Positions 37,435-64,000 of a stretch of DNA of 64,000 bases are shown piece after piece. The notes under the pieces were generated by a model, which was not told the origin of the DNA, did not search any database, and saw only the letters and a list, made by a program, of their open reading frames with translations. Position numbers and translations under genes: made by a program. This DNA comes from Arctopsyche grandis (lineage: Eukaryota; Arthropoda; Insecta; Trichoptera; Hydropsychidae): the NCBI RefSeq assembly GCF_051622035.1, contig NC_135359.1:29231501-29295500 (forward strand), written 5' to 3'. How positions within the stretch are numbered: position 1 is the stretch's first letter; each line of letters opens with the position of its first letter.

Positions 37435-37444
37435 ACGTTCAAAA

Positions 37445-37783
37445 ATGAACAGGTCCAGAAAGAAGCACTCAAACTACAGTTATTCGAAGCTTGCGGATAG
37501 AGAAGACTTTACCGATGAACAGTTTCAATTGCCGCCTACGAAGATACCCTGGAAAGCAATATGTTTGGCCACATTTTTGTGCTGCGTCGGATTCGTCCTA
37601 CTTCTGATCGGAAGCCTCATCATCACCGGACACATTGACTCGCAGTACAGCGACAGGATGTGGTCCCTCATCGTACTGGGAGTAATCATGTTCCTGCCAG
37701 GATTTTATCACTTACGAATAGCTTACTATGCGTTCAGGAATTTTCCCGGTTATTCATTTGATGATATTCCGGAGTTTGAGTAA
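37445..37783 (+). CDS. TMEM230: TMEM230, two-span vesicle membrane protein
   Basis: The protein has 112 residues (human about 120). A hydrophilic N-terminus leads to the family motif PPTKIPWKAI (30-39). The first membrane span is about 37-60 (LATFLCCVGFVLLLIGSLII), followed by a short loop. The second span is about 73-95, with the hallmark FLPGFYHLRIAYYA, and the C-terminus is PGYSFDDIPEFE. In vertebrates TMEM230 sits in synaptic, secretory and recycling vesicle membranes and affects vesicle trafficking; the same is inferred here. I chose the ATG at 37,445 over the in-frame ATG at 37,406 because a splice acceptor ends at 37,434 and homologues start near MNRS. The CDS is a single exon. AATAAA at 37,816-37,821 is a likely poly(A) signal just after the stop. 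The repeat element ending at 36,974 lies close upstream and could affect the promoter. Confidence 0.96.
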   Translation: MNRSRKKHSNYSYSKLADREDFTDEQFQLPPTKIPWKAICLATFLCCVGFVLLLIGSLIITGHIDSQYSDRMWSLIVLGVIMFLPGFYHLRIAYYAFRNFPGYSFDDIPEFE

Positions 37784-43719: not shown

Positions 43720-44300
43720 ATCATGGCACGCATGCAGCCAAAATGTAAGAATATTTATATATTAACAGTATTTATATTTCTTAATGAAATCGTTGCTGCC
43801 GAGACTGAATGTGATATTTTCCACCTTAGTGAGCGTAAATTGTCGGAAATTACTCTAACCCATTTATCTGGTAGTCTGCGCTCATCATTGTTTTCATGAT
43901 TGATTGTGATTTATGAGTGAAATTTTGATTAACTCTCTTCCATTTGGGCCTTACAGGGATGTTTTGTATTTGTAGTTGTTTCTTACATATTTATTGAAAC
44001 TGGCTGTAGGTGCAAGGCATTCCTTATGCTATATTTTATTTGATATTTTTACTTTATCTGTTATTATTAAATGCTATTTTTTATGTTTATGTATGGATGT
44101 ATTTATGTTTATGTTCAAATGTATTTTTTTATGTATAATTGATGAGTATATTATTTTCGTTATGTATTAATTTATGTTTAATTGTTATTTTGTTTTTTTT
44201 GTGTTATATTTTTTGACCATTGTGGCGCTTTAGGATTCCTGTTATGCCACAATGGTCTGTTTAGAATAAAATAAAATAAATAAATAAATAATAATAATTT
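43720..44300 (+). mobile_element. LINE 3' end
   Basis: An AT-rich 3' UTR ends in the hairpin-like pair GACCATTGTGGC / GCCACAATGGTC (44,215-44,254), then AATAAAATAAAATAAATAAA. The last 140 bp recur at 57,439-57,580. The left limit is uncertain. Confidence 0.5.
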
Positions 44301-44388
44301 ATTTAATATTTATCCCAGTATGCATTTATTGTGACCAGAGGGTAGATTTTGGAGTAAATGATTTTAAACAAATTTCACACTTAGGCTT

Positions 44389-44623
44389 TTACCTGGTGTG
44401 AGTTCTTAAATGTCCCACAAGTGCATTTTTTCGAATAAATGATTTTAAACAAATGTCACATTTGTATGGTTTTATGTCAGCATGCGATTGTTTATGTCTC
44501 TCGAGGTAAGGTTTTGGAGTAAATGATTTTAGACAAATTTCACACTGGTATGGCTTTTCCCCCGTGTGAGTTCTCAAATGTGACACAAGTTCATCTTTAC
44601 GAACATATGATTTAAAAAAAATG
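44389..44623 (-). pseudogene. Out-of-frame zinc fingers downstream of ZNF copy 1
   Basis: After the stop at 44,624 a different frame continues with two intact C2H2 fingers (CEICLKSFTPKPYLERHKQS, CDICLKSFIRKNALVGHLRT) and the remains of a third (SYVRKDELVSHLRTH) whose second Cys is Phe. Relative to the repeat unit, two bases are missing within the His codon after KP, so the fingers drop out of frame. The same loss is present in copy 2. Confidence 0.75.
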
Positions 44624-46816
44624 TCACATTTGTGGTTTTATCCCAGCATGCAATTTTGTATGTGTCTCGAGGCTAGTTTTTTGAGTAAATGATTTTAGAC
44701 AGATTTCACACCTGTACGGTTTTTCCGCCGTGTGAGTTTTCAAATGATTAAAAAGTGAATTTTTTCGAATAAATGATTTTAAACAAATTTTACATTTGTG
44801 TGGTTTTATCCCAGCATGCAATTTTTTATGTCTCTTGAGGCTAGATTTTTCAGTAAATAGTTTCAGACAAATTTCACACTTGTAAGGCTTTTCCCCCGTG
44901 TGAGATCTCAAATGTATCACAAGTGTATTTTTTCGAATATATGATTTTAAACAAATTTTACATTTGTGTGGTTTTATCCCAGCATGCAATTTATTATGTC
45001 TCGCGAGGTTACTTTTATGAGTAAATGATTTTAGACAGATTTCACACCTGTAAGGTTTTTCCGCCGTGTGAGTTCTCAAATGATTAAAAAGTGAATTTTT
45101 TTGAATAAATGATTTTAAACAAATTTTACATTTGTGTGGTTTTATCCCAGCATGCAATTTTGTATGTGTCTCGAGGTTAGATTTTTTAGTAAATGATTTT
45201 AGACAAATTTCACACTTGTAAGGCTTTTCCCCCGTGTGAGATCTTAAATGTACCAAAAGTGCATTTTTTTGAGTAAATGACTTTAAACAAATGTTACATT
45301 TGTGTGGTTTTATCCCAGCGTGCAATTTATTATGTCTCTCGAGGCTAGATTTTTCAGTAAATAATTTTAGACAAATTTCACACTTGTAAGGCTTTTCCCC
45401 CGTGTGATATCTTAAATGTATCAAAAGTGTATTTTTTTGAGTAAATGACTTTAAACAAATGTTACATTTGTGTGGTTTTATCCCAGCGTGCAAGTTTTTA
45501 TGTGTTTCGAGGTTAAATTTTTTAGTAAATGATTTTAGACAAATTTCACACTTGTAAGGCTTTTCCCCCGTGTGAGATATCAAATGTGTCACAAGTTCAT
45601 TTTTACTAACATATGATTTTAAACAAATGTCACACCTGTAAGGTTTTTCCGCCGTGTGAGTTCTCAAATGATTAAAAAGTGAATTTTTTCGAATAAATGA
45701 TTTTAAACAAATTTTACATTTGTGTGGTTTTATCCCAGCGTGCAATTTATTATGTCTCTCGAGGCTAGATTTTTCAGTAAATAATTTTAGACAAATTTCA
45801 CACTTGTAAGGCTTTTCCCCCATGTGAGATCTTAAATGTATCAAAAGTGTATTTTTTTGAGTAAATGACTTTAAACAAATGTTACATTTGTGTGGTTTTA
45901 TCCCAGCGTGCAATTTTTTATGTGTCTTGAGGTTAGATTTGTAAGTAAATGATTTTAGACAAATTTCGCACTGATGTGGCTTTGCCCCCGTATGAGATAT
46001 CAAATGTGTCACAAGTTCATTTTTACTAACATATGATTTTAAACAAATGTCACATTTGTATGGCTCTTCCCCCGTGTGAGTTCTCAAATGAATAAAAAGT
46101 GAATCTTTTCGAATAAATGATTTTAAACAAATTTTACATTTGTGTGGTTTTATCCCAGCATGCAATTTATTATGTCTCTCGAGGCTAGATTTTTTAGTAA
46201 ATAATTTTAGACAAATTTCACACTTGTGAGGCTTTTCCCCCGTGTGAGATATCAAATGTATCTCAAGTCTATGTTTTTGAATATATGATTTTAAACAAAT
46301 GTCACATTGAAACCCCTTTTCTCCAGGATCAGATCTTTTGTGTAAAATAAGTTCAGATTCACTGGGAAATGGCTTTAAGCAAATTTCACTATCCTTTTGG
46401 TGAATTGTCGATTGTGAAGGCTCATCGTCCCATATTAGATCTTCCAAAAAAACTTCTTCAGTCTTGATGTTCAAGCTATCGCCTAACCTCAGTTGAGACG
46501 TTTCGTGGCTTCGAAAACAAGCCTTTCGAAAGCTGATCAACAATTCGAGATTGGTCTTACACGAAAGACACACCGTGTCTGGCAACCCATCGCCTCTTTT
46601 AACCTGCAGATGAAATGAAAAAAACAATAGGATTGAGCGGTGAAAAGTTGGGAGAACCAATTGGGTCCACAACAGTATTGTAACCTGTAACCAGTAACCT
46701 ACATTAATTTGACAGCAGGTCCGAATGCGTTGCTCCAGACGCTCTGGATGAGGATCGCCGAAGATGGAGAAGGAAGACTCGGCCGGAGCTGAACCAAGAC
46801 AAAGCCTGCACTCCAT
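44624..46816 (-). CDS. ZAD-C2H2 zinc-finger protein, copy 1 (20 fingers)
   Basis: Two exons: 46,816-46,703 and 46,603-44,624, with a 99-bp intron (donor GTAGGT, acceptor TCATCTGCAG, phase 0). The spliced protein has 697 residues. The ZAD domain (1 to about 85) has the zinc ligands CRLC (3-6) and CLSC, and is split by the intron at CCQIN|VKRGDGLP; reading through would add 33 residues that break the domain. A linker with an acidic patch (EEVFLEDLIWDDEP) and a degenerate finger follow, then 20 C2H2 fingers. Linkers alternate between TGEKPYKC and AGIKPHKC types, so the array is built of two-finger units. ZAD proteins dimerise and bind DNA in the nucleus; the target is unknown. The start lies only 94 bp from a transposon end, and the gene ends early at KPQM compared with the fingers still encoded downstream. 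Confidence 0.88.
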   Translation of the reverse strand: MECRLCLGSAPAESSFSIFGDPHPERLEQRIRTCCQINVGYWLQVTILLWTQLVLPTFHRSILLFFSFHLQVKRGDGLPDTVCLSCKTNLELLISFRKACFRSHETSQLRLGDSLNIKTEEVFLEDLIWDDEPSQSTIHQKDSEICLKPFPSESELILHKRSDPGEKGFQCDICLKSYIQKHRLEIHLISHTGEKPHKCEICLKLFTKKSSLERHNKLHAGIKPHKCKICLKSFIRKDSLFIHLRTHTGEEPYKCDICLKSYVSKNELVTHLISHTGAKPHQCEICLKSFTYKSNLKTHKKLHAGIKPHKCNICLKSFTQKNTLLIHLRSHMGEKPYKCEICLKLFTEKSSLERHNKLHAGIKPHKCKICLKSFIRKNSLFNHLRTHTAEKPYRCDICLKSYVSKNELVTHLISHTGEKPYKCEICLKSFTKKFNLETHKNLHAGIKPHKCNICLKSFTQKNTLLIHLRYHTGEKPYKCEICLKLFTEKSSLERHNKLHAGIKPHKCNICLKSFTQKNALLVHLRSHTGEKPYKCEICLKSFTKKSNLETHTKLHAGIKPHKCKICLKSFIQKNSLFNHLRTHTAEKPYRCEICLKSFTHKSNLARHNKLHAGIKPHKCKICLKSYIRKNTLVIHLRSHTGEKPYKCEICLKLFTEKSSLKRHKKLHAGIKPHKCKICLKSFIRKNSLFNHLKTHTAEKPYRCEICLKSFTQKTSLETHTKLHAGIKPQM
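46604..46702 (-). other. Intron of ZNF copy 1
   Basis: 99 bp and divisible by three without a stop, so the unspliced frame stays open. The canonical GT..AG ends and the position inside the ZAD domain argue that it is removed. Confidence 0.8.
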
Positions 46817-46909
46817 CGTCCCTGTATTTTACTTATGTACAGCAACCAGACGACTTGCCTTCGCCTTGTTATTTTTTTTAGTGACACCTTTGGTCTAAAT
46901 TTGGTACTA

Positions 46910-47301
46910 CAGTATACTCTCGATTATCCAGTTTGCGGATTATCCGTGCTTGAAAAAAATTTTTTTTTTCTTATATGATTATGAGACGCACCGATCGTAA
47001 ACACGCGTGTTATTTGATTCTTCGAACAAGATTTGGAAAAAGATTCATTCCGACATGGAAACAGATTAAGTGGATTCTGAAGAGAATGAAGCAAATGATA
47101 TATCTGAAATATATGGATTATTGGAAAATTTAAAATGTTTTGAAAACGTGGATAAGGAAAAGATCTAGGAGTGGCTCAATCATGATTTTAAGTGATCCAC
47201 GTTTTAAACGCATGGATGATGCAGCTATCGTTTCTTTTTTTTTGCTTCTCTAGAGGAAGAAAATGAGAGTAACACTACAAGTGGAGAAGATACCAGTCAT
47301 T
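46910..47301. mobile_element. Tigger/pogo remnant, left part (copy 1)
   Basis: It begins after TA with CAGTATACTCTCGATTATCC, the classic pogo/Tigger terminus. It then holds, on the plus strand, the C-terminal end of a jerky/Tigger transposase (DSEENEANDISEIYGLLENL near 47,070). The rest of the transposase is missing, so it is an internally deleted copy. It continues after the nested insertion at 53,927. No right terminus was found. Confidence 0.7.
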
Positions 47302-47998
47302 AGTTTGTAGGCGGGGTAGGTATGTTTTGACCGTATCCCAGCCTAACGAAACACTGTTGTGCTTGTTTTAATAAAGTTTTATTGTTTGTCAATGGTTGTA
47401 CAAAGGTATTATATTTGGGCAAAAGTATGTCGTTCAGCGGTCTCTGGATATGGTAGAGTGTCGCTGGCTCGGCATTCAGCTATGTTCAGAAGGTCTCTGG
47501 ATGCGGCAGTGTGTTGCTGGCTCGTTCGGCTGGTTGATCTTCCAAGTCCGCGTAGTGTAGTGGTGGCAGGTCAGGAGCTGGTCGACTGGTCTGGTGCTGT
47601 GTGTCGACGCTTGCTGTTGTGGGTCGACTGGCGTTGCCCCTTCTTTGTGGCTGCGTTTTAACGATAGTTTATAGGGAGTGCCACTCCCTTAACCTATCCA
47701 TCGAACGTGTTGTATGGGATCGGACTCTCGGTGATGTTTGTGGTGCGGGCTGGCGGCTGCTCGCTTGTGGGGTGTTTGTTGATCTGGAACACTAAGCAAA
47801 ATTAGTGCATCATCTGTGGGATACTGTCGGGGTTAGTGTGTTAGTGGGTGGTTAACGGGTATGGACCGTTTGGAGGTGGTTGAGTCTGGTTAATTAAATT
47901 GGGTGCTATTTTAGCCTATACCCATCTTCAGAATGTCGATGGGTCTTTGATTGGACGTGAGTTTGGTCACACTGAGGGAATTGATCAGGGGATTGTCT

Positions 47999-48966
47999 TG
48001 TAGGAATCTCGTCATCGTCATCGTCATCGAAACATTCGAGAATATTCCACAACAACAAACCACATTCCTCGCAGAAATCACCACACGTAAACAACCCGTG
48101 CACTTCTTGGAATCAATCGCCAAATCCTTCGAGAATGTTCCACCCCTCACACTCAAGCGGAACAAAACCAGTCGAACCACACCTGCAGCCATTATATTAA
48201 ACACAAGCGGAACGCCCCTACCAGTCGAGCGGAATCAAAACGGTCGAAACACGCCGCCACCATTAAACTACATCGAGCGGAACGGCGCCAATCGTTCCAG
48301 AAAAGTCCACCCCATCGACAAAAGCAAATTCCTCGCTTACGCATCAACAACCACCACCATCGGTCAGGTGATTCCAGAAACACTATAAAAGGAGGTACAA
48401 CCCAAACAACGCCAGTCGACCCACAGCAGCAAGCGTCGACACACAGCAGCAGACCAGAGACCTTCTGAACATAGCCGAACAACGAGCCAGCAACACACTG
48501 CCGCATCCAGAGACCTTCTGAACATAACCGAACGACGAGCCAACAACACACTGCCGCATCCAGAGACCTTCTGAACATAGCCGAACGACGAGCCAACAAC
48601 ACACTGCCGCATCCAGAGACCTTCTGAACATAGCCGAACGACGAGCCAACAACACACTGCCGCATCCAGAGACCTTCTGAACATAGCCGAACGACGAGCC
48701 AACAACACACTGCCGCATCCAGAGACCTTCTGAACATAGCCGAACGACGAGCCAACAACACACTGCCGCATCCAGAGACCTTCTGAACATAAACGAATGC
48801 CGAGCCAGCGACACTCTACCATATCCAGAGACCGCTGAACGCCATACTTTTGCCCAAATATAATACCTTTGTACAACCATAGGCAAACAATAAAACTTTA
48901 TAAAACAAGCACAACAGTGTTTCGTTAGGCTGGGGATACGGTCAACACACATGTACCCCGACTACA
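47999..48966 (+). mobile_element. Inner solo LTR of the same LTR family, in the LINE
   Basis: It runs from TGTAGGAATCTCGTCATCG to TACCCCGACTACA, with GTCT at 47,995-47,998 and 48,967-48,970. It has a TATA box (ACTATAAAAGGAGG near 48,385) and AATAAAACTTTATAAAA near the end. A 53-bp tandem repeat (starting CAGAGACCTTCTGAACATAG) makes it the longest of the three LTRs here. No internal region is present. Confidence 0.9.
48455..48825 (+). repeat. 53-bp minisatellite within the inner LTR
   Basis: Units start at 48,455, 48,508, 48,561, 48,614, 48,667, 48,720 and 48,773, all with CAGAGACC. The middle units are nearly identical and the last is diverged. The long frames across it encode repeats only because the array is open in several frames; they are not genes. 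Confidence 0.9.
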
Positions 48967-51572
48967 GTCTTTTTTGCCAAGAGACTTGAAGTAGTTCACG
49001 GCAAGTTTGTGTACGTGTTTGTCGAGGTAGTCAATGCTTAGGTCATTGTGAATTATAGTGTTTCTTGTGTACCAGTCGTAGTTGCCCATGGCACGCAAGA
49101 ATTTGTTTTGAATTGTCTGTAGTCTGAGTATGGATCTGTTGGAGATGGTAGTGTGAGCCCACACGGGGCTCGCGTACGTGATTTGTGGGCGGATGATGGA
49201 TTTATACAGCAAGCACTTGTTTTTAAGCGAGAGCTTGCTGTTTGGTTTGCATAGTGGGTAAAGCTTTGACGCAACTGCCCTAGCTTTACGCACCGCGTTA
49301 GTGATGTGGGGTCTCCAGGTTAATTTGCGGTCGATTATTACCCCCAGGTAGCGGGTAGACGTGGTCCAGTTGACTGGTTTGTCATTTATAATGACTGGCT
49401 TGGCTGGTTTGCACCGTTTTTTACGTCTGGAGAAGAATATTGCCTGACTTTTATCCGGGTTGATTTTCATCAGCCATTTATCGTACCACGCTACCAGTTG
49501 GTCCGAGTACTTCTGGAGGGCGAGCGAGACTTCCTTGGGGCCGACGGAGCTCGCTAATATGGCCGTGTCGTCGGCATACTGTGCGATGTTTGTGTACCTA
49601 TATGTAGGAGTGGGTATGTCGTGTGTGTAAAGGTTGAATAGCGTGGGGCCGAGGATGGAGCCTTGGGGTACCCCAGCGGAGATGCCTCGCTGAGTTGATA
49701 TGCGGTCCTTGAGTTTGACCTGAAATCTCCTTTCTCTTAGGAAGGATGCGATAGAACGTATTGAGTGGGGGGTGATGTTGGCGGCAATCATTTTGTAAAG
49801 GAGGCCAGAGTGCCAGACTTTATCGAAGGCTTTGGAAATGTCTAGGAAGATTGCTCCAGTAGACATGTTGTGGTCGAAACCGTCTATAACGGTTTCAACA
49901 ACTCTGTGAATATGGTGAACGGCAGAGTGTTGGGGTCTGAAGCCAAATTGTGTTTTGGGAAGAAGGTCAATTTTTGCGATTTCGCTGTTGAGATTTGAGA
50001 TTAAGATCCGTTCCAGGATCTTACTCAGTGAGGATAGCAAGCTGATGGGTCGGTAACTTGTTGCGAGGGAGGGGTTCGAGTAGGGTTTTCTGATGAGAAT
50101 GACATTGGCGAGTTTCCATTGACTCGGAAAATGGCAGATTCTGTTGGTGGCATTTAGTATTGCTGTGAGTGCAGCGATGGCTTTTTGAGGGAGTTCTTTT
50201 AGAGCTTTGTTGGAAATTCCGTCAGGGCCAGGGGCCTTTTTGGCGGCGATAGTTTTGATGATGTTTAGGACTTCAAGCGGCGAAGTGGCGACAATGGGTA
50301 CTGGGGCTGGGTTTTCGAGGTAGCTGTTGACGGAGCTTTCAACCATTTGGCAAAAGTAACTTTGCAGGTTGAAGTTTGAGAGAGAGAATTGGTCCTGGAG
50401 ACTGTCGGCTAGGGCTTCCGCTTTATCGGCGGTGGAGTAGACGAACTTGTCTCCAACTTTGATCCTGTCGATCCTGTTGCCGTTGCTTCTGAAGATTTTT
50501 GACAGTTTCCAGAAACCGTTATGTCCGTCTTCTAGCGCTCTGAGTTTGGTATCCCAGTTGTCGTTTCGTAGTTGCCACAAGGCATTTTTAACGTCTTATT
50601 GAAGTCTGTTCATTCGCTGTTTGAGGATTGGGTCCTTGTACCTTTGGAATGCCTTCCTAGCTCTATTCTTAAGGCGAATAAGATCTCGAATGTCGGGGGG
50701 TAAAGCTTGCGGGTGCAGAGGAGAGTGGGGTGTGGTGGTGGTGCTGGCGTCTAAGGCTGACTGTATTTCATCCGTGAGTATGTTAATAGCGGAGTCTATT
50801 TCTTGGGTGGTGTGAATTGAGTGGGGGTAAGTGACGGTGTGATGAAGGAGAGTTGAGAATTTCTCCCAAGATATGGTACTTCGGAGGATGGGGTTTATAG
50901 TTACGGGTGTGTTGGTGAGTTCTAGTATGACCGGGTGATGGTCGGAAGAAAGATCATTTACCACAGTCAAGGACTGCGCGCCCGGAAAATTTTGAGTTAG
51001 AACGATGTCTAAGATATCGGGTCTGCCTTTGAAGTTAATGGGGATTCTTGTGGGTTCGTCTGGGGCCGTGACGGAAACTTTTGGGTTTGAAAGTTGGGAA
51101 TAACTTAAGAGAATTTTCCCATTATTGTTAGTGGCTTGACTGTTCCATCTGGAATGTTTGGCGTTAAGGTCGCCTGCGGCAATGGTGGCTTTGTTAGTGT
51201 TGAATATTTTGTCCAAGTCTGTGGTGAGTAAGTGTTGTTTTGGTGTATTGTAAACTGCGTGGAGGATGAGTGGGGTGCCAGTGTTAGTCCAAACTTCTAC
51301 CGACGTCAGTTCTATCCCTGTGGTGATCGGCCGCGGGGCCAAGTTGTGTTGAATTGTGTGTTTGATGAATATGGCAGTGCCGCCGGCGGCTTTGCCTATT
51401 CTGTCGTTTCTGTATGTGGTGTAGTTTGGGAAGTTTAGTCGATTGCCAGGTTTGAGCCAAGTTTCGTTTACTAGTGCGATATCAATGGAGTGTTGGAGTA
51501 AGAATTGCTCGAATTCGACACGCTTGCTGAGTATGCTGCAAGCGTTCCAGTAAACGATCTTGAGGTAGCAAG

Positions 51573-53232
51573 TCATTTTTTATGTTGGTGGGTGAGCATG
51601 AGCAGGATGGCATTTATCGAGTCAATGGACTGTTCGATTTTGCTCATCCGATTTGAAAGGTCTTGGTTTGGGTTCCAGCTAGTGTTGATGTTGGGTTGTT
51701 GGGTGGGAGGGGTTAGGGGAGGGAAATTTGAGTTTTCGTGTCTATATTGCGGTACGTTGGTCTTCGTTGGTTGGGGGTGGGAGGGGTTGGGGTTTCGGGG
51801 TTGACGGGAGTTCTTCCTGCTTTTGTTGTTGGGATTTGAAGGGCAGCCTCTGTAGCTGGAAACGTGAGGGCCTCTGCAGCTGGTGCAAGTTGGAGTGGAG
51901 GTTGTTGACACACAGTCAGTGGTCAAATGGGGTCCCACACATTTGATGCACAGGGGGGGCGACATGGCAGTTGTAGGAGCCGTGACCAAAGCCTTGGCAG
52001 CGGTGGCACTGCGGTACAGTGTCACCACGGCGAAGTGATTCGATGCGAACCAGTTGGCCGAAGATGCTGGAGAGGTTGAACAACTTCTTCCCCTCTTCGT
52101 CGCGTGTGGTCTCGACAGTGAACATGGGCATGTCGCGCTTGTCACGTCGTGATTTCATGACGGTGGCTTTACTGGCTTTGTAGCCAAGATTGGCCAACTC
52201 GGCGAGGACTTCTGACTCGGAATAGTTGGGGCTAATGCCTCTAATGACCAGTTTGAGCGGTTTGTCTTCCGTTAGAGGGTGGGCATAGAATTGGAATTTT
52301 TCATCTTGGAGCACTTTGGTGATTTGGCGGTAATCATCGATGGTGCACGGTGTGATTTTGACTCTGTTTTCAGAGTAGACGGCTGTGAATTTGTGGTTAC
52401 GTCCGTCGAGTTTCCTTTGAACTACCTTGTAGTCCGATGGCAACCTTGGAAAGATTGGAGCAACTTTAGGTTTGGGAAGCACATCCGAAACGGTGTTTCT
52501 GGATAGGTGAGCGGGGCTTGTGGTCTGGGGGGGTGTACGAATTTGAGCTGTGAGAGGGGTTTGGGGCGTGTTTGCCGACGGTGTGCTGAGGGTCGCTTGT
52601 TGGGTGGGTGTGTTGTGAATTGGACTGGATATGTTTCCGATTTCGGATGATGCCAACAGGGAAGGAGTAGTCCTCCGGTTGTGGTGCAGGTGTTTGTGTA
52701 GGTGCAGGTGTTTGGGTAGGTGTGGGTGATTGTGTAGGTGTGGGTGGTTGTGTGGGTTCAGGTGCGGCTGCTGATGCGGGTGGGGACTTGGCAGCGGAAG
52801 TAACCTCCATTTTGTTAGACTGCACGGAGTCGGAATCGGAGTCGAAGTCGGATTCTGCGAGAGCCGCGTATCTGTTGCTGATGGGTGGGGGCGACTGTAA
52901 TTGTGTGTGTGTGGTGTTGGGTGGGCTCGTCATTCTACGCTTACCGTTTTTGCGGGGTGACGTCTGGGGGGATGTAGCCATGTCCTTTGTCTTTGTGGTC
53001 GTTGTCGTCGTCGACTGGGCCTGCGACATGTTTGACGCGAGGTTTCCCAGTTGGGCGGAGTGGGCTGCTTGGTCAGCTGCTCGTTGGGCTGCGTGAGTCG
53101 CGATTAACTTTTTGAGGGAAGCGTTTTCTTCCCTCATTCCTTCACGAGTTTTTTGAAGTCGTGTTCCGTGAATTTATGCGTTTTAGCGCTAGTGTCACTG
53201 CCACCACGGCCATCACGCCGCACACTGGCCAT
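51573..53232 (-). pseudogene. LINE ORF1, gag-like with three CCHC knuckles
   Basis: The start is probably the ATG at 53,232 (MASVRRDGRGG...THKFTEHDFKKLVKE). The frame shifts near 53,138 into MREENASLKKLI, again near 52,500-52,650 into the PRE_C2HC-like part (KPLKLVIRGISPNYSESEVL), and near 51,920-52,000 into the knuckle part. The knuckles are CHRCQGFGHGSYNC, CIKCVGPHLTTDC and CTSCRGPHVSSYRGC. A Pro/Thr-Gln repeat (PTPTQTPAPTQ) lies at about 52,680-52,760. The protein would bind LINE RNA; three frameshifts make this copy non-functional. Confidence 0.75.
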
Positions 53233-53926
53233 CTTGTGGGTGGGTTTGTTTGTTTGTTGTGTCACTGTCACTTGTCACTTGTCACTGTCACTATCACTTT
53301 TGTTTTTTTGGCTGTTGCTAGGACAGCTTCTCATTCCCAGAGGGACGCGTTCGGAGAGTCGAGCGGTAGTTACATCGCGGTTTCGGCGACGCAGCTGTTA
53401 ACGGGACAGCTGTTTGTAGCGCGGGTAACGACAACGACAGCGCGGCGGGACACGTCCGAGCACTGCGGGCGCTGGGCGCGGACCTCTACTCGACTGACTG
53501 ACTAACTGGCGTTGTTTGGGTTGTACCTCCTTTTATAGTGTTTCTGTGGTCACCTGACCCATGGTGGTGGTTGTTGATGCGTAAGCGAGGAATGCGCTTT
53601 TGTCGATGGGGTGGACTTTTCTGGAACGATTGGCACCGTTCCGCTCGATGTAGTTTAATGGCGGCGGCGTGTTTCGACCGTTTTGGTTCCGCTCGACTGG
53701 TAGGGGCGTTCCGCTTGAGTTTAATATAATGGCTGCAGGTGTGCTTTGACTGGTTTTGTTCCGCTCGAGTGTGAGGAGTGGAACATTCTCGAAGGATTTG
53801 GCGATTGATTCCAAGAAGTGCACGTGTTGTTTACGTGTGGTGAGTTCTGCGAGGAATGTGGTTTGTTGTTGTGGAATATTCTCGAATGTTTCGATGACGA
53901 TGACGATGACGAGATTCCTACAAGTT

Positions 53927-54215
53927 ATTCGTCATAAAGCGGTACAGCACTAGTACTAACTACTAACGGCCACTTTTTGCTTAACGATGAGCGTTTTTCT
54001 TAATAAATAATGAGTATTAAAATTATTATGAATCAAAAATTTGTGTTGTAAATATGATATTTATGACAAAAAACAAATACTTAAATAGTATTTGTTTTTT
54101 GTACCTTTCTGTTGGAAAGAGACAAAACACGGTCGGTGGATCGCGCGCGGGCTACGGAAATTTTGTGATCACGACAGGCGAGTCGTCAGCACCCAAAGTG
54201 TTAAGTGAGATTTAT
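53927..54215. mobile_element. Tigger/pogo remnant, right part (copy 1)
   Basis: It continues the remnant at 46,910 after the nested insertion, starting ATTCGTCATAAAGCGGTACA. It includes the end of the transposase (GAGCGTTTTTCTTAATAA). A small hairpin (AAAACAAATACTT / AGTATTTGTTTT) is at 54,072-54,100. Confidence 0.65.
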
Positions 54216-54309
54216 TCTTTCCCAGCGGCGTGGACTAGTGATTAGCATATAATGCTTTCACTAGTCACACCCTAAAACTGGTCACGAGAAAACTGGTCCC
54301 ACCCTAAAA

Positions 54310-55078
54310 GGTCTGTTCATACTTAACAGCACTGCACGGCTTCAGCACTGCACGACTCCGCTTCAAATATGTCATTTTATCACATTTCTATTCATATCTA
54401 CCTACACGTCGCGGTCACGTCACGTTCACAGCACTTTGGCCTAGTGCAAGGCAAAATCGGCTTACTTATACATTACAAGCCATGACGATACCGCGCAATA
54501 TTGCTTACGTCGTATTGTCGAGTACTTACAATATGAATGCATACACGTGCATTCGTAGCTACGCGTCAGAATACAATTCAGCAAAAATGTTTCGGCGTTT
54601 ATCGAACGAAAAATTATGTATAATCGCGTTTTTGTTGGAAGAAGAAGCTCAAGAAGGCAATAAAAAAGCAAGGAGGCATTTTGATGTGCATCCCATGTTA
54701 AAAAATAGAAAATCGAAGGAGAGTTTTGGACACTGTATAAGGAGCTTGTGGATGATGGACAAATTTTTTTTAAATATTTCCGTAAAAAAGTTTTTTTAAA
54801 TATTTTTTCAATATTCGCGCCAACACCATGTCGAAAGATTGAACAGCTGTCAACTGTCACTATCGATAATTAGTCCAAAACAACAAAGCGGCAGACTCAT
54901 GGCACGTAATTCGCGTATATATTTCCACGATGGCCAAAAGAAAGGATACGATACGTTGACGGATGTTGCTGTAAGGTATGAACAGGAAATGTTGGGTACT
55001 GCTGTAAGCTTGCCGTGGCGTAAACGTGACGGTTGGTATGAATATACCCATACAAAATGTACCAAAGAATACTTTTCC
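54310..55078 (+). mobile_element. PIF/Harbinger element, copy 1, right end lost
   Basis: The left terminus GGTCTGTTCATACTTAACAG equals that of copy 2. It encodes part of a Harbinger transposase N-terminus (FRRLSNEKLCIIAFLLEEEA, then a VHPMLKNRK stretch). The right end is absent; after GAATACTTTTCC the sequence jumps to CTAAGCCAGCC. In-frame integrity is lost. Confidence 0.7.
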
Positions 55079-55095
55079 CTAAGCCAGCCAACCGC

Positions 55096-55706
55096 TGGCT
55101 TAGGGAATCTCATATTTTTACACCTAACCTTCAGCAGCGTGTGCCAGAATTCTTCATCCGGTTATATTTATAATTCGAATCTTTTGGCAATAGGAAGTTT
55201 ATTTACCACATCTATAACAGTACATACATGCCTGGTTACGGCTTACTTGAATGTCATATTTAGTGCTTGTTTATGTTCTGTTATCAGTACATTAGCAATT
55301 GTTGTATATGAAAAAAATTCAATGTTTTCACATGGGTCTATTTTCTTAGTAGTTTGTTCTCAATGTTCTAGAAGCGCATGGAATTTTTTTAATTAATTTC
55401 ATATTTAGAACTATACCAATAGCTATATGTTTTCATTGTCATCGACATACAATGAAAATTCATTACATTTATGTTTTGTTTTATCAGTCGTGAATATCAT
55501 TTAATGTAATTTTTCTTCTAAATATGTTATACGTATATAAAAGCCTCAAAGTATCTATTGAGCTATTTTTTCACACTGAAAATTTTAAGTACATAGATTT
55601 TGCTCAAAACTGCAAAGATTTTATTTTATTTCCTGGAAAACGAGTTTTATAGTCATCGATGATATATGCGGTCTGAAAATATTGACGTTTGCCACATCCA
55701 CTAGGT
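55096..55706. other. Gene-free stretch
   Basis: AT-rich, with no recognised repeat. It begins with a short palindrome (CCCTAAGCCAGCCAACCGCTGGCTTAGGG at its left edge, 55,078-55,106). An upstream ISCU exon could lie here or farther left, but none is recognisable. Confidence 0.4.
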
Positions 55707-55710
55707 TTAA

Positions 55711-56213
55711 CCGTTTGCCCGCGGCCGTCTTCTATGGAAGCTTTGCGCGACAAGTCTGTAGCGCGGCTGTCTTCCATAGAATTTCTGAACTTTGCACAGG
55801 ATTTTGAGCCTTATATGCGCCTATTTCAACTGTTTTAAGGTTCAAAATTGGTTGAATATATAACTGAGAGTTGAATGCCATCTATTCAATTTGCTTAAAT
55901 TCATATATACCAGTCAAAATTAGTTTTTTGTGGAACCATACTGAAACCTCGTTTATGTGACGTCACGTCTGTTGAACAATGGCGACGATACGTCTCAATT
56001 GTATGAAGAATGATTATTTGACAATTAAGCCAAAACTACGAGATATATTATGCATTTTATTGTTTAAAATAATACTTTGTGTTAATTAACATATCTGGTT
56101 ACTTGAGTAAATATTAAAATCTGTATTTAAGGTCGAAAACTCGATTGCCAAATTCGCGAAAAAAGTGCCACGTACAGGGCATGTTCGCTATATTTATTGC
56201 CGCGGGCAAAGGG
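55711..56213. mobile_element. piggyBac-like MITE 2 with TTAA duplications
   Basis: TTAA at 55,707-55,710 and 56,214-56,217 flanks ends CCGTTTGCCCGCGGC and, from the right, CCCTTTGCCCGCGGC. It is 503 bp and non-coding. Its termini differ from the MITE at 15,125 beyond the CCCTTTG core, so it belongs to another family. It lies in the intron upstream of the first visible ISCU exon. Confidence 0.8.
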
Positions 56214-56445
56214 TTAAGTATTGATTAACTGTAAAATAGAAGTTCGTTTGCTTTATATCGGAATCAAGTATAGTCTATGTTGACCGTCGAATCATTACTA
56301 GTAGTATTAAATCACAAAAAAAATATACATATTTAATATATCGTAGAATTAGTTAATTAAAGGAAGATATAATCATTAAAAAAAATATTGTATTGAATAT
56401 TTAGTTTCAAGACTCGTTGAAAGTAATTCAAGTGTAATTTTGCAG

Positions 56446-56894
56446 GTTTTGGAGCACTATGAAAACCCTCGCAATGTCGGCTCTTTGGATAAAAAGAAGA
56501 AGAACGTCGGAACAGGATTGGTAGGTGCGCCGGCTTGCGGCGACGTGATGAAACTGCAGATCGAAGTAGACGATCAGGGAAAGATCATCGACGCAAAGTT
56601 CAAAACGTTCGGGTGCGGCTCGGCCATAGCCTCCAGCTCTCTGGCCACAGTATGGGTCAAAGGAAAGACGGTTGATCAAGCGTTGAAACTCAAAAATACA
56701 GACATTGCCAAAGAGTTATCTCTTCCTCCAGTCAAATTGCACTGCTCTAGTGAGTCTCGCATTGTGTATTTCTATTAAACTATTGTACAACGTTTATTTT
56801 ATTATATTAATTTTCATTTTCAGTGCTGGCCGAGGACGCTATCAAAGCGGCTCTTTCAGAATATAGGATAAAGCAGCAGATGAAGGACGAATAA
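56446..56894 (+). CDS. IscU: ISCU, Fe-S cluster scaffold, last two exons (partial)
   Basis: Exons 56,446-56,749 and 56,824-56,894 are joined across a 74-bp intron (GTGAGT...TTTCAG). They encode 124 residues, VLEHYENPRNVGSLD to IKQQMKDE. ISCU is the mitochondrial scaffold on which cysteine desulfurase (NFS1-ISD11-ACP), frataxin and ferredoxin build [2Fe-2S] clusters. All ligands are present: C31 with D33 (ACGD), C57 (FGCGSA), and H99-C100. LPPVK (93-97) is the site bound by mitochondrial HSP70 for cluster release. The acceptor TTTTGCAG at 56,438-56,445 shows that an upstream exon with the mitochondrial presequence exists, but I could not find it; it may be before the duplication block or outside the window. 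The intron and intact ligands argue against a retrocopy. AATAAA motifs at 57,100-57,109 mark the 3' end. Confidence 0.96.
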
Positions 56895-57109
56895 GTCGAC
56901 GGAGGCTGTGAAATGTCGAGTGTAGTGTGGGCCCGTGAAATTATACGATCTTATGGATATCCATGATCTAATTCAACTTGAAACATGTTTGCAATCCTTT
57001 TTTCTCTATGCGTATATTGTTATGAGTGTGTTAATAGAAGTACAAATTTCTTGTTTTTATTTATCTCTTAGAGAAAAGAATGTATTTTCAGAAAATGGCA
57101 ATAAATAAA

Positions 57110-57438
57110 GCATTATAAAATGTACTTTTCTTTCTTTTTGTATATAAATACATTATTTACAGTAATTTTCAATCCACATTGACATTGATTAGGTATATAT
57201 TTAAAAGTTCGTTCAGAATAAAATTTAAATTTATTGAAATATCTATATACAATCTGCTTTAACAAGATAATTGCTATTTTATTATTAATTGCACTTACAC
57301 GATAGGTTTTTTATAGTAAATTTCAATTTTGTACTCTACTCAAAATAAAATTTATTGCATTTCGTAAAAACACAAAAACCTTTATAAAAAAAACACACAT
57401 CCAAAGATCACATGTTTAATAAATTCATTCATTCACAT
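57110..57438. other. Gene-free stretch after ISCU
   Basis: AT-rich sequence between the ISCU poly(A) signal and the second duplication copy. Nothing recognisable. Confidence 0.5.
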
Positions 57439-57669
57439 GTTATGTATTAATTTATGTTTAATTGTTATTTTGTTTTTTTTGTGTTATATTTTTTGACCAT
57501 TGTGGCGCTTTAGGAATTCCTGTTATGCCACAATGGTCTGTTTAGAATAAAATAAAATGAATAAATAAATAATAATAATTTATTTTATATTTATCCCAGT
57601 ATGCATTTATTGTGACCAGAGGGTAGATTTTGGAGTAAATGATTTTAAACAAATTTCACACTTAGGCTT

Positions 57670-57912
57670 TTACCTGGTGTGAGTTCTTAAATGTCCCACA
57701 AGTGCATTTTTTCGAATAAATGATTTTAAACAAATGTCACATTTGTATGGTTTTATGTCAGCATGCGATTGTTTATGTCTCTCGAGGTAAGTTTTTGGAG
57801 TAAATGATTTTAGACAAATTTCACACTGGTATGGCTTTTCCCCCGTGTGAGTTCTCAAATGTGACACAAGTTCATCTTTACGAACATATGATGTCACATT
57901 TGTGATGTGATG
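57670..57912 (-). pseudogene. Out-of-frame zinc fingers downstream of ZNF copy 2
   Basis: After the stop at 57,913 the sequence continues, out of frame, with SYVRKDELVSHLRTH and two intact fingers (CEICLKSFTPKTYLERHKQS, CDICLKSFIRKNALVGHLRT). The same KPQM stop precedes them as in copy 1. In addition a short local repeat (GATGTCACATTTGTGATGTGAT) is present here only. Confidence 0.75.
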
Positions 57913-60186
57913 TCACATTTGTGGTTTTATCCCAGCATGCAATTTTGTATGTGTCTCGAGGCTAGTTTTTTGAGTAAATGATTTTAGACAGATTTCACAC
58001 CTGTAAGGTTTTTCCGCCGTGTGAGTTCTCAAATGATTAAAAAGTGAATTTTTTTGAATAAATGATTTTAAACAAATTTTACATTTGTGTGGTTTTATCC
58101 CAGCATGCAATTTTGTATGTGTCTCGAGGTTAGATTTTTTATTAAATGATTTTAGACAAATTTCACACTTGTAAGGCTTTTCCCCCATGTGAGATCTTAA
58201 ATGTACCAAAAGTGCATTTTTTTGAGTAAATGACTTTAAACAAATGTTACATTTGTGTCGTTTTATCCCAGCGTGCAATTTATTATGTCTCTCGAGGCTA
58301 GATTTTTCAGTAAATAATTTTAGACAAATTTCACACTTGTAAGGCTTTTCCCCCGTGTGATATCTTAAATGTATCAAAAGTGTATTTTTTCGAGTAAATG
58401 ACTTTAAACAAATGTTACATTTGTGTGGTTTTATCCCAGCGTGCAAGTTTTTATGTGTCTCGAGGTTAAATTTTTTAGTAAATGATTTTAGACAAATTTC
58501 ACACTTGTAAGGTTTTTCCCCCGTGTGAGATATCAAATGTGTCACAAGTTCATTTTTACTAACATATGATTTTAAACAAATGTCACATTTGTATGGTTTT
58601 ATGTCAGCATGCGATTGTTTATGTCTCTTGAGGCTATATTTATCAGTAAATAATTTAAGACAAATTTCACACTTGTAAGGCTTTTCCCCCGTGTGAGATC
58701 TCAAATGTATCACAAGTGTATTTTTTCGAATATATGATTTTAAACAAATTTTACATTTGTGTGGTTTTATCCCAGCATGCAATTTATTATGTCTCGCGAG
58801 GTTACTTTTATGAGTAAATGATTTTAGACAGATTTCACACCTGTAAGGTTTTTCCCCCGTGTGAGATCTTAAATGTATCAAAAGTTTATTTTTTTGAGAA
58901 AATGACTTTAAACAAATGTTACATTTGTGTGGTTTTATCCCAGAATGCAATTTTTTATGTGTCTCGAGGTTTCTTTTATGAGTAAATGATTTTAGACAAA
59001 TTTCACACTTGTAAGGCTTTTCCCCCGTGTGAGTTCTCAAATGATTAAAAAGTGAATTTTTTTGAGTAAATGACTTTAAACAAATGTTACATTTGTGTGG
59101 TTTTATCCCAGCGTGCAATTTATTATGTCTCTCGAGGATAGATTTATCAGTAAATAATTTTAGACAAATTTCACACTTGTAAGGCTTTTCCCCCGTGTGA
59201 GATCTTAAATGTATCAAAAGTTTATTTTTTTGAGGAAATGACTTTAAACAAATGTTACATTTGTGTGGTTTTATCCCAGCGTGCAAGTTTAAATGTTTCT
59301 TGAAGTTAGATTTTTTAGTAAATGATTTTAGACAAATTTCACACTTGTAAGGCTTTTCCGTGTGAGATATCAAATGTGTCACAAGTTCATTTTTACTAAC
59401 ATATGATTTTAAACAAATGTCACATTTGTATGGCTCTACCCCCGTGTGAGTTCTCAAATGTTTAAAAAGTGAATCTTTTCGATTAAATGATTTTAAACAA
59501 ATTTTACATTTGTGTGGTTTTATCCCAGCATGCAATTTTTTATGTGTCTTGAGGTTAAATTTTTTTGTAAATGATTTTAGACAAATTTCACACTTGTAAG
59601 GCTTTTCCCCCGTGTGAGATATCAAATGTATCACAAATCTATGTTTGTGAATATATGATTTTAAACAAATATCACATTGAAAGCCCTTTTCTCCAGGATG
59701 AGATCTTTTGTGTAAAATAAGTTCAGATTCACTGGGAAATGGCTTTAAGCAAATTTCACTATCCTTTTGGTGAATTGTCGATTGTGAAGGCTCATCGTCC
59801 CATATTAGATCTTCCAAGAAAACTTCTTCAGTCTTGATGTTCAAGCTATCGCCTAACCTCAGTTGAGACGTTTCGTGGCTTCGAAAACAAGCCTTTCGAA
59901 AGCTGATCAACAATTCGAGATTGGTCTTACACGAAAGACACACCGTGTCTGGCAACCCATCGCCTCTTTTAACCTGCAGATCAAATGAAAAAAACAATAG
60001 GATTGAGCGGTGAAAAGTTGGGAGAACCAATTGGGTCCACAACAGTATTGTAACCTGTAACCAGTAACCTACATAAATTTGACAGCAGGTCCGAATGCGT
60101 TGCTCCAGACGCTCTGGATGAGGATCGCCGAAGATGGAGAAGGAAGACTCGGCCGGAGCTGAACCAAGACAAAGCCTGCACTCCAT
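57913..60186 (-). CDS. ZAD-C2H2 zinc-finger protein, copy 2 (21 fingers)
   Basis: Exons 60,186-60,073 and 59,973-57,913 with a 99-bp intron at the same place as copy 1. The spliced protein has 724 residues. The ZAD (CRLC, then KRGDGLPDTVCLSC), the acidic linker and the degenerate first finger are almost identical to copy 1. The 21 fingers share finger types with copy 1, but in a different order and number, for example SYVSKNELVTHLISH at places 4 and 14, and LFTDK-type fingers only here. One linker is shortened (SHTEKPYKC instead of SHTGEKPYKC), and one reads AGIKRHKC. So the fingers changed by unequal exchange or conversion while exon 1 did not. The role is presumably sequence-specific DNA binding; the target is unknown. 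Confidence 0.88.
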   Translation of the reverse strand: MECRLCLGSAPAESSFSIFGDPHPERLEQRIRTCCQIYVGYWLQVTILLWTQLVLPTFHRSILLFFSFDLQVKRGDGLPDTVCLSCKTNLELLISFRKACFRSHETSQLRLGDSLNIKTEEVFLEDLIWDDEPSQSTIHQKDSEICLKPFPSESELILHKRSHPGEKGFQCDICLKSYIHKHRFVIHLISHTGEKPYKCEICLKSFTKKFNLKTHKKLHAGIKPHKCKICLKSFNRKDSLFKHLRTHTGVEPYKCDICLKSYVSKNELVTHLISHTEKPYKCEICLKSFTKKSNFKKHLNLHAGIKPHKCNICLKSFPQKNKLLIHLRSHTGEKPYKCEICLKLFTDKSILERHNKLHAGIKPHKCNICLKSFTQKNSLFNHLRTHTGEKPYKCEICLKSFTHKRNLETHKKLHSGIKPHKCNICLKSFSQKNKLLIHLRSHTGEKPYRCEICLKSFTHKSNLARHNKLHAGIKPHKCKICLKSYIRKNTLVIHLRSHTGEKPYKCEICLKLFTDKYSLKRHKQSHADIKPYKCDICLKSYVSKNELVTHLISHTGEKPYKCEICLKSFTKKFNLETHKNLHAGIKPHKCNICLKSFTRKNTLLIHLRYHTGEKPYKCEICLKLFTEKSSLERHNKLHAGIKRHKCNICLKSFTQKNALLVHLRSHMGEKPYKCEICLKSFNKKSNLETHTKLHAGIKPHKCKICLKSFIQKNSLFNHLRTHTAEKPYRCEICLKSFTQKTSLETHTKLHAGIKPQM
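59974..60072 (-). other. Intron of ZNF copy 2
   Basis: 99 bp with the same splice signals as copy 1, splitting the ZAD domain after CCQIY. Like copy 1 it is in frame and open if retained. Confidence 0.8.
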
Positions 60187-60279
60187 CGTCCCTGTATTTT
60201 ACTTATGTACAGCAACCAGACGACTTGCCTTCGCCTTGTTATTTTTTTTAGTGACACCTTTGGTCTAAATTTGGTACTA

Positions 60280-60965
60280 CAGTATACTCTCGATTATCCA
60301 GTTTGCGGATTATCCGTGCTTGAAAAAAATTTTTTTTTTCTTATATGATTATGAGACGCACCGATCGTAAACACGCGTGTTATTTGATTCTTCGAACAAG
60401 ATTTGGAAAAAGATTCATTCCGACATGGAAACAGATTAAGTGGATTCTGAAGAGAATGAAGCAAATGATATATCTGAAATATATGGATTATTGGAAAATT
60501 TAAAATGTTTTGAAAACGTGGATAAGGAAAAGATTGGCTCAATCATGATTTTAAGTGATCCACGTTTTAAACGCATGGATGATGCAGATATCGTTTCTTT
60601 TTTTTGTTTCTCTAGAGGAAGAAAATGAGAGAAGAACACTACAAGTGGAGAAGATACCAGTCATTAGTTATTCGTCATAAAGCGGTACAGCACTAGTACT
60701 AACTACTAACGGCCACTTATCTGCTTAACTATGAGCGTTTTTCTTAATAAATAATGAGTATTAAAATTATTATAAATCAAAAATTTGTGTTGTAAATATG
60801 ATATTTATGACAAAAAACAAATACTTAAATAGTATTTGTTTTTTGTACCTTTCTGTTGGAAAGAGACAAAACACGGTCGGCGGATCGCGCGTGGGCTACG
60901 GAAATTTTGTGATCACGACAGGCGAGTCGTCAGCACCCAAATTGTTAAGTGAGATTTATTCTTAT
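60280..60965. mobile_element. Tigger/pogo remnant, uninterrupted (copy 2)
   Basis: CAGTATACTCTCGATTATCC follows TA. The transposase tail (DSEENEANDISEIYGLLENL) runs straight into CATTAGTTATTCGTCATAAA, the site where copy 1 has its 6.6-kb insertion. No right terminus is found. The right limit is approximate. Confidence 0.7.
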
Positions 60966-60979
60966 TTCGGCCATTCCCA

Positions 60980-61098
60980 GCGGCGTGGACTAGTGATTAG
61001 CATATAATGCTTTCACTAGTCACACTAAAACTGGTCACACCCTAAAAGTGGTCACACCCTAAAAGTGGTCACACCCTAAAACTGGTCACACCCTAAAA
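60980..61098 (+). repeat. SINE head and GGTCACACCCTAAAA tandem array
   Basis: GACTAGTGATTAGCATATAA matches the head at 31,355. It is followed by four to five units of about 18 bp (ACTGGTCACACCCTAAA), interrupted by the Harbinger element. In copy 1 the array is shorter (54,265-54,309). Confidence 0.65.
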
Positions 61099-61848
61099 GG
61101 TCTGTTCATACTTAACAGCACTGCACGGCTTCAGCACTGCACGACTCCGTTTCAAATATGTCATTTTATTACATTTCTATTCATATCTACCTACACGTCG
61201 CGGTCACGTCACGTTCACAGCACTTTGGCCTAGTGCAATATTGCTTACGTCGTATTGTCGAGTACTTACAATATGAATGCATACACGTGCATTCGTAGCT
61301 ACGCGTCAGAATACAAGTCAGCAAAAATGTTTCGGCGTTTATCGAACGAAAAATTATGTATAATCGCGTTTTTGTTGGAAGAAGAAGCTCAAGAAGGCAA
61401 TAAAAAAGCAAGGAGGCGTTATGATGTGCATCCCATGTTAAAAAATAGAAAAACCAAAGGAGCTTGTGGATGATGGACAAATTTTTTTTAAATATTTCCG
61501 TAAAAAAGTTTTTTTAAATATTTTTTTAATATTCGCGCCAACACCATGTCGAAAGATTGAACAGCTGTCAACTGTCACTATCGATAATTGGTCCAAAACA
61601 GCAAAGCGGCAGACTCATGGCACGTAATTCGCGTATATATTTCCACGATGGCCAAAAGAACGGATACGATACGTTGACGGATGTTGCTGTAAGGTATGAA
61701 CAGGAAATGTCGGGTACTGCTGTAGCCTGCCGTGGCGTAAACGTGACGGTTGGTATGAATATACCCATACAAAATGTACCAAAGAATACTTTTCCTACGG
61801 CCGGATACCTGCTGAAGTCGGTACGTGCTGACTAGGTATGAACAGACC
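61099..61848 (+). mobile_element. PIF/Harbinger-like element, both ends present (750 bp)
   Basis: The ends are GGTCTGTTCATACTTA and, inverted from the right, GGTCTGTTCATACCTA. The flanks read CCCTAAAA| and |TAAAATCGG, so the target duplication is TAA or TAAAA. It encodes the start of a Harbinger transposase (FRRLSNEKLCIIAFLLEEEA, VHPMLKNRK), but lacks the DDE core. It is therefore a deletion derivative. Confidence 0.75.
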
Positions 61849-62235
61849 TAAAATCGGTCACGAGACAACTGATTGACCGATTTTAGGGTGTGGCCAGTTT
61901 TAGTGTGACGGGTGATCACGTGTGACCGGTTGTCCTGTGACTGGTTCACATTTGACTAGTAATCACCGAACCGAAAATATAAATTGAAAATATAAGTTGA
62001 AAATACGGTTCGGTGATTACTAGTCAAATGTGAACCTGTCACAGGACAACTGGTCGCTCTAGATCGGTCACTCGTGATCATCCGTCACGCTAAAACTGGT
62101 CACGAGAAAACTAGTCAAACGCTAAAACTGGTCACGAGAAAACTGGTCACACGCTAAAACTGGTCACGATAAAATTGGTCACACGCTAAAACTGGTCCAG
62201 AAATTAAAACTGGTCTAAGACTACTTTCGTACTCC
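61849..62235. mobile_element. Fold-back repeat of the GGTTCGGTGATTAC family
   Basis: Inverted arms meet at 61,974-62,005: AGTAATCACCGAACCG to the left and CGGTTCGGTGATTACT to the right. They extend outward through CAAATGTGAACC and GTGATCACG blocks, giving arms of about 100 bp. Outside lie tandem CTAAAACTGGTCACGAGAAA units. The same terminus is found in the element at 35,879-36,974. Family unknown. Confidence 0.6.
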
Positions 62236-62276
62236 CTAAGCCAGCCGACCGCTCTCTACCACGCTAATGTCAGACT

Positions 62277-63129
62277 TGTAGGAATCTCGTCGTCGTCATC
62301 GAAACCTTCGAGAATATTCCGCAACAACAAAATACATCGAGCGGAACAGCGCCAAGCATTCCAGAAAATACTACGCCTCGACGAAAGCAAATTCCCCTTG
62401 TACGCATCAACAACTAAATGCTCGTACGACCACTTCCATCAAGCATTCCAGAAAATTCTACGCCTCGACAAAAGTTCATTCCTCTTGTACGCATCAACAA
62501 CTAAATGCTCGTACGACCACTTCCATCAAGCATTCCAGAAAATTTTACGCCTCGACAAAAGTGCATTCCTCTTGTACGCATCAACAACTAAATGCTCGTA
62601 CGCATCAATAACCACTTCCATCAAGCGTTCCAGAAAATTCTACGCCTCGACAACAGTGCATTCCTTTCTTACGCATCAACAAACCACCACCATCGGTCAG
62701 GCGATTCCAGAAACACTATAAAAGGAGGTACAACCCAAACAACGCCAGTCGACCCACAGCAGCAAGCGTCGACACACAGCAGCAGATCAGTCAACATACA
62801 GCTCCTGACCAGCCACCACTACACTACGCGGACTTGGAAGATCAACCAGCCGGACGAGCCAGCAACACACTGCCGTATCCAGAGACCTTCCGAACATAGC
62901 CGAACACCGAGCCAGCAACACACTGCCGCATCCAGAGACCTTCTGAACATAGCTGAATGCCGAGCCACCGACACTCTACCATATCCAGAGACCGCTGAAC
63001 GACATACTTTTGCCCACAAATACCATACCTTTGTACAACCATAGGCAAACAATAAAACTTTATAAAACTAGCACAACAGTGTTTCGTTAGGACGGGATAC
63101 GGTCAACACACACATGTACCCCGCCTACA
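62277..63129 (+). mobile_element. LTR of a Ty3/Gypsy element (CsRn1-like), left end of element
   Basis: It runs from TGTAGGAATCTCGTCGTCG to TACCCCGCCTACA, 853 bp. It has a TATA box (TATAAAAG, 62,717) and AATAAA near 63,050. It is the same family as the two solo LTRs at 47,306-53,922 and 47,999-48,966. A primer-binding site follows directly, so this is the 5' LTR of an element that runs past the window edge. The right flank is outside, so no target duplication can be checked. Confidence 0.85.
62361..62640 (+). repeat. 87-bp tandem repeat in the LTR
   Basis: Units start at 62,361, 62,448 and 62,535 (CCAGAAAATTCTACGCCTCG), with a variant fourth at 62,630. The solo LTRs have a single version of this segment, so the array expanded in this copy. 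Confidence 0.85.
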
Positions 63130-63240
63130 TTGGTACTACCCCGACGTGATCTACGCAACCTTCTGATCATCCAACAGCGCTGTCAACACACATCCCTACC
63201 CCGCCTACATTGGTGACCCCATCTTTGAACTACGCAGCCT
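63130..63240 (+). other. tRNA-Trp-type primer-binding site, partly duplicated
   Basis: TTGGT..CCCCGACGTGATC and then ACGCAACCTTCTGATC match the complement of the 3' half of insect tRNA-Trp, a known primer of CsRn1/Kabuki-type Ty3/Gypsy elements. A second junction (CCCCGCCTACATTGGTGACC, 63,198-63,217) repeats the LTR end and primer start about 80 bp later. Confidence 0.7.
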
Positions 63241-64000
63241 TCATAGCAGTCAACAGCGCAGTCAACACGGCAGCCCACAGTGCAGCCTCCACAACAACCA
63301 ACAGCCGCCACGACAGCAGTCAACAGCGCAGTCCACATTGCAGCCCAGATCGCAGCCTACATAGCAGCCCACACCGCAGCCTACATAGCAGCCCACAGCG
63401 CAGCCTACAAAGCAGCCAACAAACGCCACGACAAGGCAACAGCCAGAAGCCTTCACGCAACCGCAAGCTTCGAGCAACCACAAGCTTCACGCAACCGCAA
63501 GCTTCAAGCAACAGCAAAACGCCTGCACAACAGCACCGTCCAGACCGACACAAACCTTCACTACCATTGTAACGACCGCAACAGTAACATGGTGTGAAAG
63601 TACATATGGACCAGCTACCAACACAACCCGCTGTTGAGTCAACCCACTCCAGCACAACCGGCGAAACAAATCGCCACTGAGCCAACTAGCTCCAACACAA
63701 CACAGCCGCTGTCGAGACAACTAACTCCAGCACAACCAGCAAAACGCCTGCACAACAGCACCGTCCAGACCGACACAAACCTTCACTACCATTGTAACGA
63801 CCGAAACAGTAACATGGTGTGAAAGTACATATGGACCAGCTACCAACACAACCCGCTGTTGAGTCAACCCACTCCAGCACAACCGGCGAAACAAATCGCC
63901 ACTGAGCCAACTAGCTCCAACACAATACAGCCGCTGTCGAGACAACTAACTCCAGCACAATCAGCACAACGCCTGCACAACAACGCCAGTCGACCCACAA
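63241..64000 (+). mobile_element. Repeat-rich leader of the LTR element, cut by the window end
   Basis: 63,260-63,500 consists of short repeats of CAGCCCACA/GCAGCCTACA type and CGCAACCGCAAGCTTC units. From about 63,521 a 225-bp unit (starting GCCTGCACAACAGCACCGTC) repeats at 63,746 and begins again at 63,971. Frames through it encode Ala/Ser/Gln-rich repeats without gag features. The last bases (AACGCCAGTCGACCCACA) match an LTR segment. No structural gene is visible inside the window. Confidence 0.65.

Follow-up and report, generated by a model that had tools for sequence, protein, structure and literature searches.

Layers and boundaries of the nest

The interval 47302-53926 of the window (the whole stretch of 64,000 nucleotides of the Arctopsyche grandis contig NC_135359.1 that was analysed) raises the question of how a solo LTR split by a LINE, itself split by a second solo LTR, was assembled at a single site, and in what order. 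Positions 46800-54500 were read and the window was compared with itself, the contiguity of the nest being read from one assembly. The layer boundaries were taken from the mutual alignment of the LTR copies, independently of the target-site duplications, and the sense strand of the LTRs was judged from the TATA box and the poly(A) signal. The boundaries set by these alignments fall exactly at the coordinates of the three layers described in the original prediction, and all the duplications reported there are intact, namely AGTT for the outer LTR, the 10-bp ACTGGCGTTG for the LINE and GTCT for the inner LTR. Two random places in 46001-55000 match over four bases with a frequency of 0.0047 and over ten bases with a frequency of 3.2e-5, the latter value being inflated by the repeats of this region.

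The outer LTR, on the minus strand, lies between AGTT at 47302-47305 and AGTT at 53923-53926, and measures 739 bp without its insert. Its 3' part (R/U5, 47306-47636) is delimited by alignment to the inner LTR and to a third LTR of the window, and its 5' part (53505-53922) corresponds to U3 with a TATA box. The inner LTR (968 bp, 47999-48966, with a TATA box) lies on the plus strand within ORF2 of the LINE, between GTCT at 47995-47998 and GTCT at 48967-48970. Both copies have TG...CA ends, a short duplication and no internal region. Solo LTRs of insect LTR retrotransposons typically show TG...CA ends, a 4-bp duplication, a TATA box and a poly(A) signal, all of which are shared by the copies described here; the difference lies in the R region, where a 53-bp unit is repeated in tandem a variable number of times. 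The inner LTR has 7.6 copies of this unit (48439-48840), 2.6 copies were reported for the third LTR, and the outer LTR had no reported array. The outer and inner LTRs belong to one family, as originally proposed, with identities of 96.2% over 418 bp in U3 and 94.5% over 219 bp in U5, corresponding to K2P distances of 0.039 and 0.057, respectively. Since the outer LTR and the LINE are both on the minus strand and the inner LTR on the plus strand, a difference in strand that the original prediction does not give, the two LTRs form inverted arms, 96% complementary over 420 nt.

A third member of the family, an LTR of 854 bp on the plus strand (62276-63129), runs on into internal sequence that is truncated where the window stops. 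In U5 it is at K2P distances of 0.057 to the outer copy and 0.062 to the inner one, and these distances together indicate that the three LTRs represent distinct lineages within the family. Its U3 is largely unlike that of the other two, and it shares with the outer LTR a segment of the R region in whose place the inner LTR carries the 53-bp array. No pol sequence of the family was seen in the window, this third copy being cut at 64000, and a 30-base LTR pattern gave no match in viral_contigs. The stretch 62276-64000 also contains a 225-bp tandem repeat in the internal sequence, and a second block resembling an LTR end and a primer-binding site lies near 63190-63220.

The LINE (47637-53504, minus strand) spans 5868 bp, or 4896 bp after removal of the inner LTR and one GTCT, and is bordered by ACTGGCGTTG at 47627-47636 (3' end) and at 53505-53514 (5' end), the latter also forming the end of the outer LTR 5' part. 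Both ORFs are broken. ORF1 contains a PRE_C2HC domain (PF07530, E 8.5e-11), and its stop overlaps the start of ORF2 (ORF ending at 51573, ORF starting at 51576). In ORF2, an APE endonuclease (PF14529, E 1.9e-15; PF03372, E 2.5e-14) precedes a reverse transcriptase (PF00078, E 2.3e-38). Among the 14 PDB sequences matched by the reverse transcriptase, the best are an entry named "RNA-directed DNA polymerase", L1 ORF2p and R2 proteins, and the endonuclease piece gave a single weak match in PDB, to an exodeoxyribonuclease (E 0.0072). A profile search of the LINE gave no match to an RNase H domain. LINEs of the Jockey group are known for a PRE_C2HC ORF1, an ORF2 with the endonuclease followed by the reverse transcriptase, the lack of RNase H and an overlap of ORF stop and start. 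The present element shares all four features, but differs by the absence of poly(A) at its 3' end, which reads ...AAGAAGGGG up to the duplication. A poly(A) 3' end is typical of most Jockey members without being a strict criterion. The "Jockey-type" label of the original prediction thus holds to the level of an APE-type LINE whose ORF1 carries PRE_C2HC, and does not extend to poly(A); we file the element as an APE-type LINE, whose Jockey membership is plausible and, coming from the ORF1 domain, suggestive only. The self-comparison of the window gave no further copy of the LINE, and neither did searches of two collections built without insect genomes. The 12 pattern matches of the reverse transcriptase in genome_contigs included no relatives, and one stretch found in viral_contigs (residues 13-41 at 52%) was not used.

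Uninterrupted counterparts and the duplicated zinc-finger locus

Two of the three layers, the outer site and the LINE target, have an uninterrupted counterpart inside the window. The nest lies in a tandem segmental duplication, a feature that goes beyond the original prediction, of which copy A (44159-55078, plus strand) carries it and copy B (57439-61795, plus strand) does not. In copy B a single AGTT (60666-60669) marks the empty site: when the host flanks are joined across the nest, the resulting 41 bases (21 + 20) have their only exact plus-strand match in the window at 60649. As the site is thus present in the window both with and without the insertion, no outgroup is needed for the first layer. 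For the second layer, the alignment shows the LINE target uninterrupted in both other LTR copies of the window, the inner and the third.

The evidence for the inner layer consists of the GTCT duplication and the reading frame. Once the inner LTR is set aside, the LINE does read LGKKD-NPLIN across the site, as had been noted, and NPLIN is followed by 22 residues (27 in all) and a stop. Taken alone, this open frame weighs little, because the 972 removed bases are divisible by three and the tail is short. This layer has no independent empty site, because a second LINE copy was not found.

Each copy of the duplication contains a ZAD-C2H2 zinc-finger ORF on the minus strand, of 730 aa in copy A (44624-46816) and 757 aa in its paralog in copy B (57913-60186), with zf-AD scores of 28.0 and 28.3 bits for a Pfam cut-off of 28 bits. 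From the first base of the ORF to the end of the AGTT the distance is 489 bp in copy A (left AGTT) and 483 bp in copy B (single AGTT), and 17 of the first 700 nt of the two ORFs differ. The finger arrays are 86-97% alike in most 200-column steps and the duplication flanks about 98%, and this greater divergence of the arrays suggests that change or exchange may have occurred inside them. The 2.4 kb between the two copies (55079-57438) form a spacer that includes ISCU-like coding sequence at 56446-56745 (NifU_N, PF01592, E 3.1e-43), and the self-comparison (E 1e-8, matches of at least 60 bp shown) gave no match of the spacer to the sequence before copy A or after copy B.

Order and age of the insertions

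Three ordinary retrotransposition events in succession at one site almost certainly account for the nest. An LTR retrotransposon would have integrated about 0.5 kb upstream of one of the duplicated zinc-finger ORFs, producing the AGTT duplication, and would at some point have collapsed to a solo LTR via recombination between its LTRs. The LINE would then have entered the outer LTR by target-primed reverse transcription, with a 10-bp duplication, and an LTR element of the same family would then have integrated in reverse orientation in ORF2 of the LINE, with the GTCT duplication, and become a solo LTR in its turn. The enzymatic mechanisms and the formation of the solo LTRs by recombination are what we infer from these structures. 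The strict order put forward originally (outer LTR, LINE, inner LTR) stands for the insertions, as it follows from the anatomy, but does not extend to the times at which the solo LTRs formed; for example, the outer element could still have had both LTRs when the LINE entered one of them. The activity of the LTR family before and after the LINE is borne out, copies of the same family lying both under and over it. The LTR-divergence check put forward with the original prediction is not suited to dating the layers as proposed, and such dating was ruled out: the outer and inner LTRs come from different copies of the family and a solo LTR is left without a partner, so that the K2P distance between them yields no layer dates. 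Moreover, in the available text of a study of nested plant elements, about a quarter of these have LTR pairs more diverged than those of their host elements (PMC7251063).

Outside the zinc-finger ORFs, the flanks of copies A and B differ at 27 of 1565 sites (1.7%, gaps excluded), which indicates that the nest is young or was polymorphic at the time of the duplication. On the left, 3 differences are seen in 481 sites, with three gap events totalling 10 bases. The right flank, which may include coding sequence, shows 24 differences in 1084 sites and seven gap events totalling 118 bases; for its first 400 bases taken separately, the count is 13 in 395 sites. This inequality between left and right flanks (Fisher p = 0.03) was counted against the explanation by three events. 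BLAST identities to copy B are lower, 85.4% for 44677-47305, whose alignment is out of register as it runs through the zinc-finger array, and 88.4% for 53923-55078, where gaps are counted. The duplication sets an upper bound to the age of all three insertions if it came first; if it joined a filled and an empty haplotype, this age bound fails. At the flank divergence, 0.85 to 1.71 premature stops would be expected in ORF2 of the LINE, which fits the single one seen. In addition, the flank indel rate would predict about 13 indels for both LINE ORFs together, and three apparent frame changes are visible in ORF1, a shortfall that would fit a LINE younger than the duplication, the comparison being rough because many of the flank indels sit in short repeats.

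The layers would be equally real if the outer insertion had been polymorphic and unequal exchange had joined a filled and an empty haplotype, the empty copy then being allelic in origin. Two insect haplotypes could show a divergence of about 1.7% with ten gap events, as the flanks do here; nevertheless, it is simpler to suppose that the duplication arose first and one of its copies then received the insertion, and nothing in the window requires a polymorphism, so that we regard an allelic origin as possible and clearly the less probable course. The low flank divergence and the presence of one filled and one empty copy would also be expected if the assembler had falsely placed two haplotypes in tandem, with copy B as the other allele and a heterozygous nest. 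Against this stand the different lengths of the zinc-finger arrays in the two ORFs (730 and 757 aa) and the distinct spacer between the copies, with its ISCU-like coding stretch and its lack of self-match before copy A or after copy B, which makes a simple false placement unlikely. Assemblers do fail at repeats, and the LTR arms, complementary as they are over 420 nt, might seem to invite a chimera whose layers are not contiguous in the genome; such an artefact would not generate duplications that agree over 4, 10 and 4 bp at boundaries set by other copies, and is extremely improbable. Three successive insertions remain our preferred explanation of the nest.

Position of the LINE, comparable systems and other features of the window

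The LINE lies at the predicted transcription start of the outer LTR. In the inner LTR, the third LTR and the U3 of the outer LTR, a CCAGT motif follows TATAAAA, with 30 bp from the first T of the latter to the A of the motif, a spacing usual for an animal initiator. The duplicated bases ACTGGCGTTG include this predicted initiator and the LINE is in sense orientation to the outer LTR; a transcript starting at the predicted A would therefore carry three bases of the LTR before passing, in sense, into the LINE at its first base. The chance of landing within 3 bp of the start in the same sense, in an LTR of 739 bp, is about 0.5% (7/739/2), for a coincidence noticed post hoc, in one event and with a start predicted from sequence. 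It is conceivable, and in our judgement quite improbable, that the outer LTR promoter starts LINE transcripts and that the nest acts as a promoter change or, with its inverted LTR arms, as a hairpin source of small RNAs at one of two zinc-finger copies that are near-identical in other respects. The pair of zinc-finger ORFs, one with 6.6 kb of retrotransposons inserted some 0.5 kb upstream and the other without, would offer a natural comparison for the effect of the insertion on expression.

Nested transposons are common in eukaryote genomes and an ordinary phenomenon, of which this nest is a tidy example; its value is that of a clean worked example with filled and empty copies of one site. Clusters of nested transposable elements are ordered by insertion by REANNOTATE (PMC2672092), and the available text of that work shares with the present case the reading of the order from the interrupting and the interrupted element; the difference is that uninterrupted counterparts for two of the three layers are found here within 64 kb. 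In the regulatory region of medaka dmrt1bY, Rex1 lies inside Izanagi (PMC5789577), likewise a case of nested elements near a regulatory gene. According to the accessible part of that report a regulatory role has been demonstrated in medaka, whereas the present nest is known from sequence alone.

Some other features of the window may be mentioned. A sequence resembling the terminal repeats of pogo/Tigger elements is present at 46910 in copy A and at 60280 in copy B; a search of both strands with up to 4 mismatches gave no second end for the terminus at 46910, its only match being the duplicate at 60280. A tRNA scan of the window gave no genes. Arrays of a CACCCTAAAACTGGTCA-like unit are found at 61021-61098 and 62084-62197, and repeats related to this unit near 54275 differ in number between the two duplication copies. 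Two tandem copies of a 298-bp unit, 99% alike, occupy 24753-25350, with related sequence at 28511-28975. Finally, ordinary animal genes are represented by a KCTD8/12/16-like ORF at 23712-24680 and a TMEM230/134-like ORF at 37406-37783.
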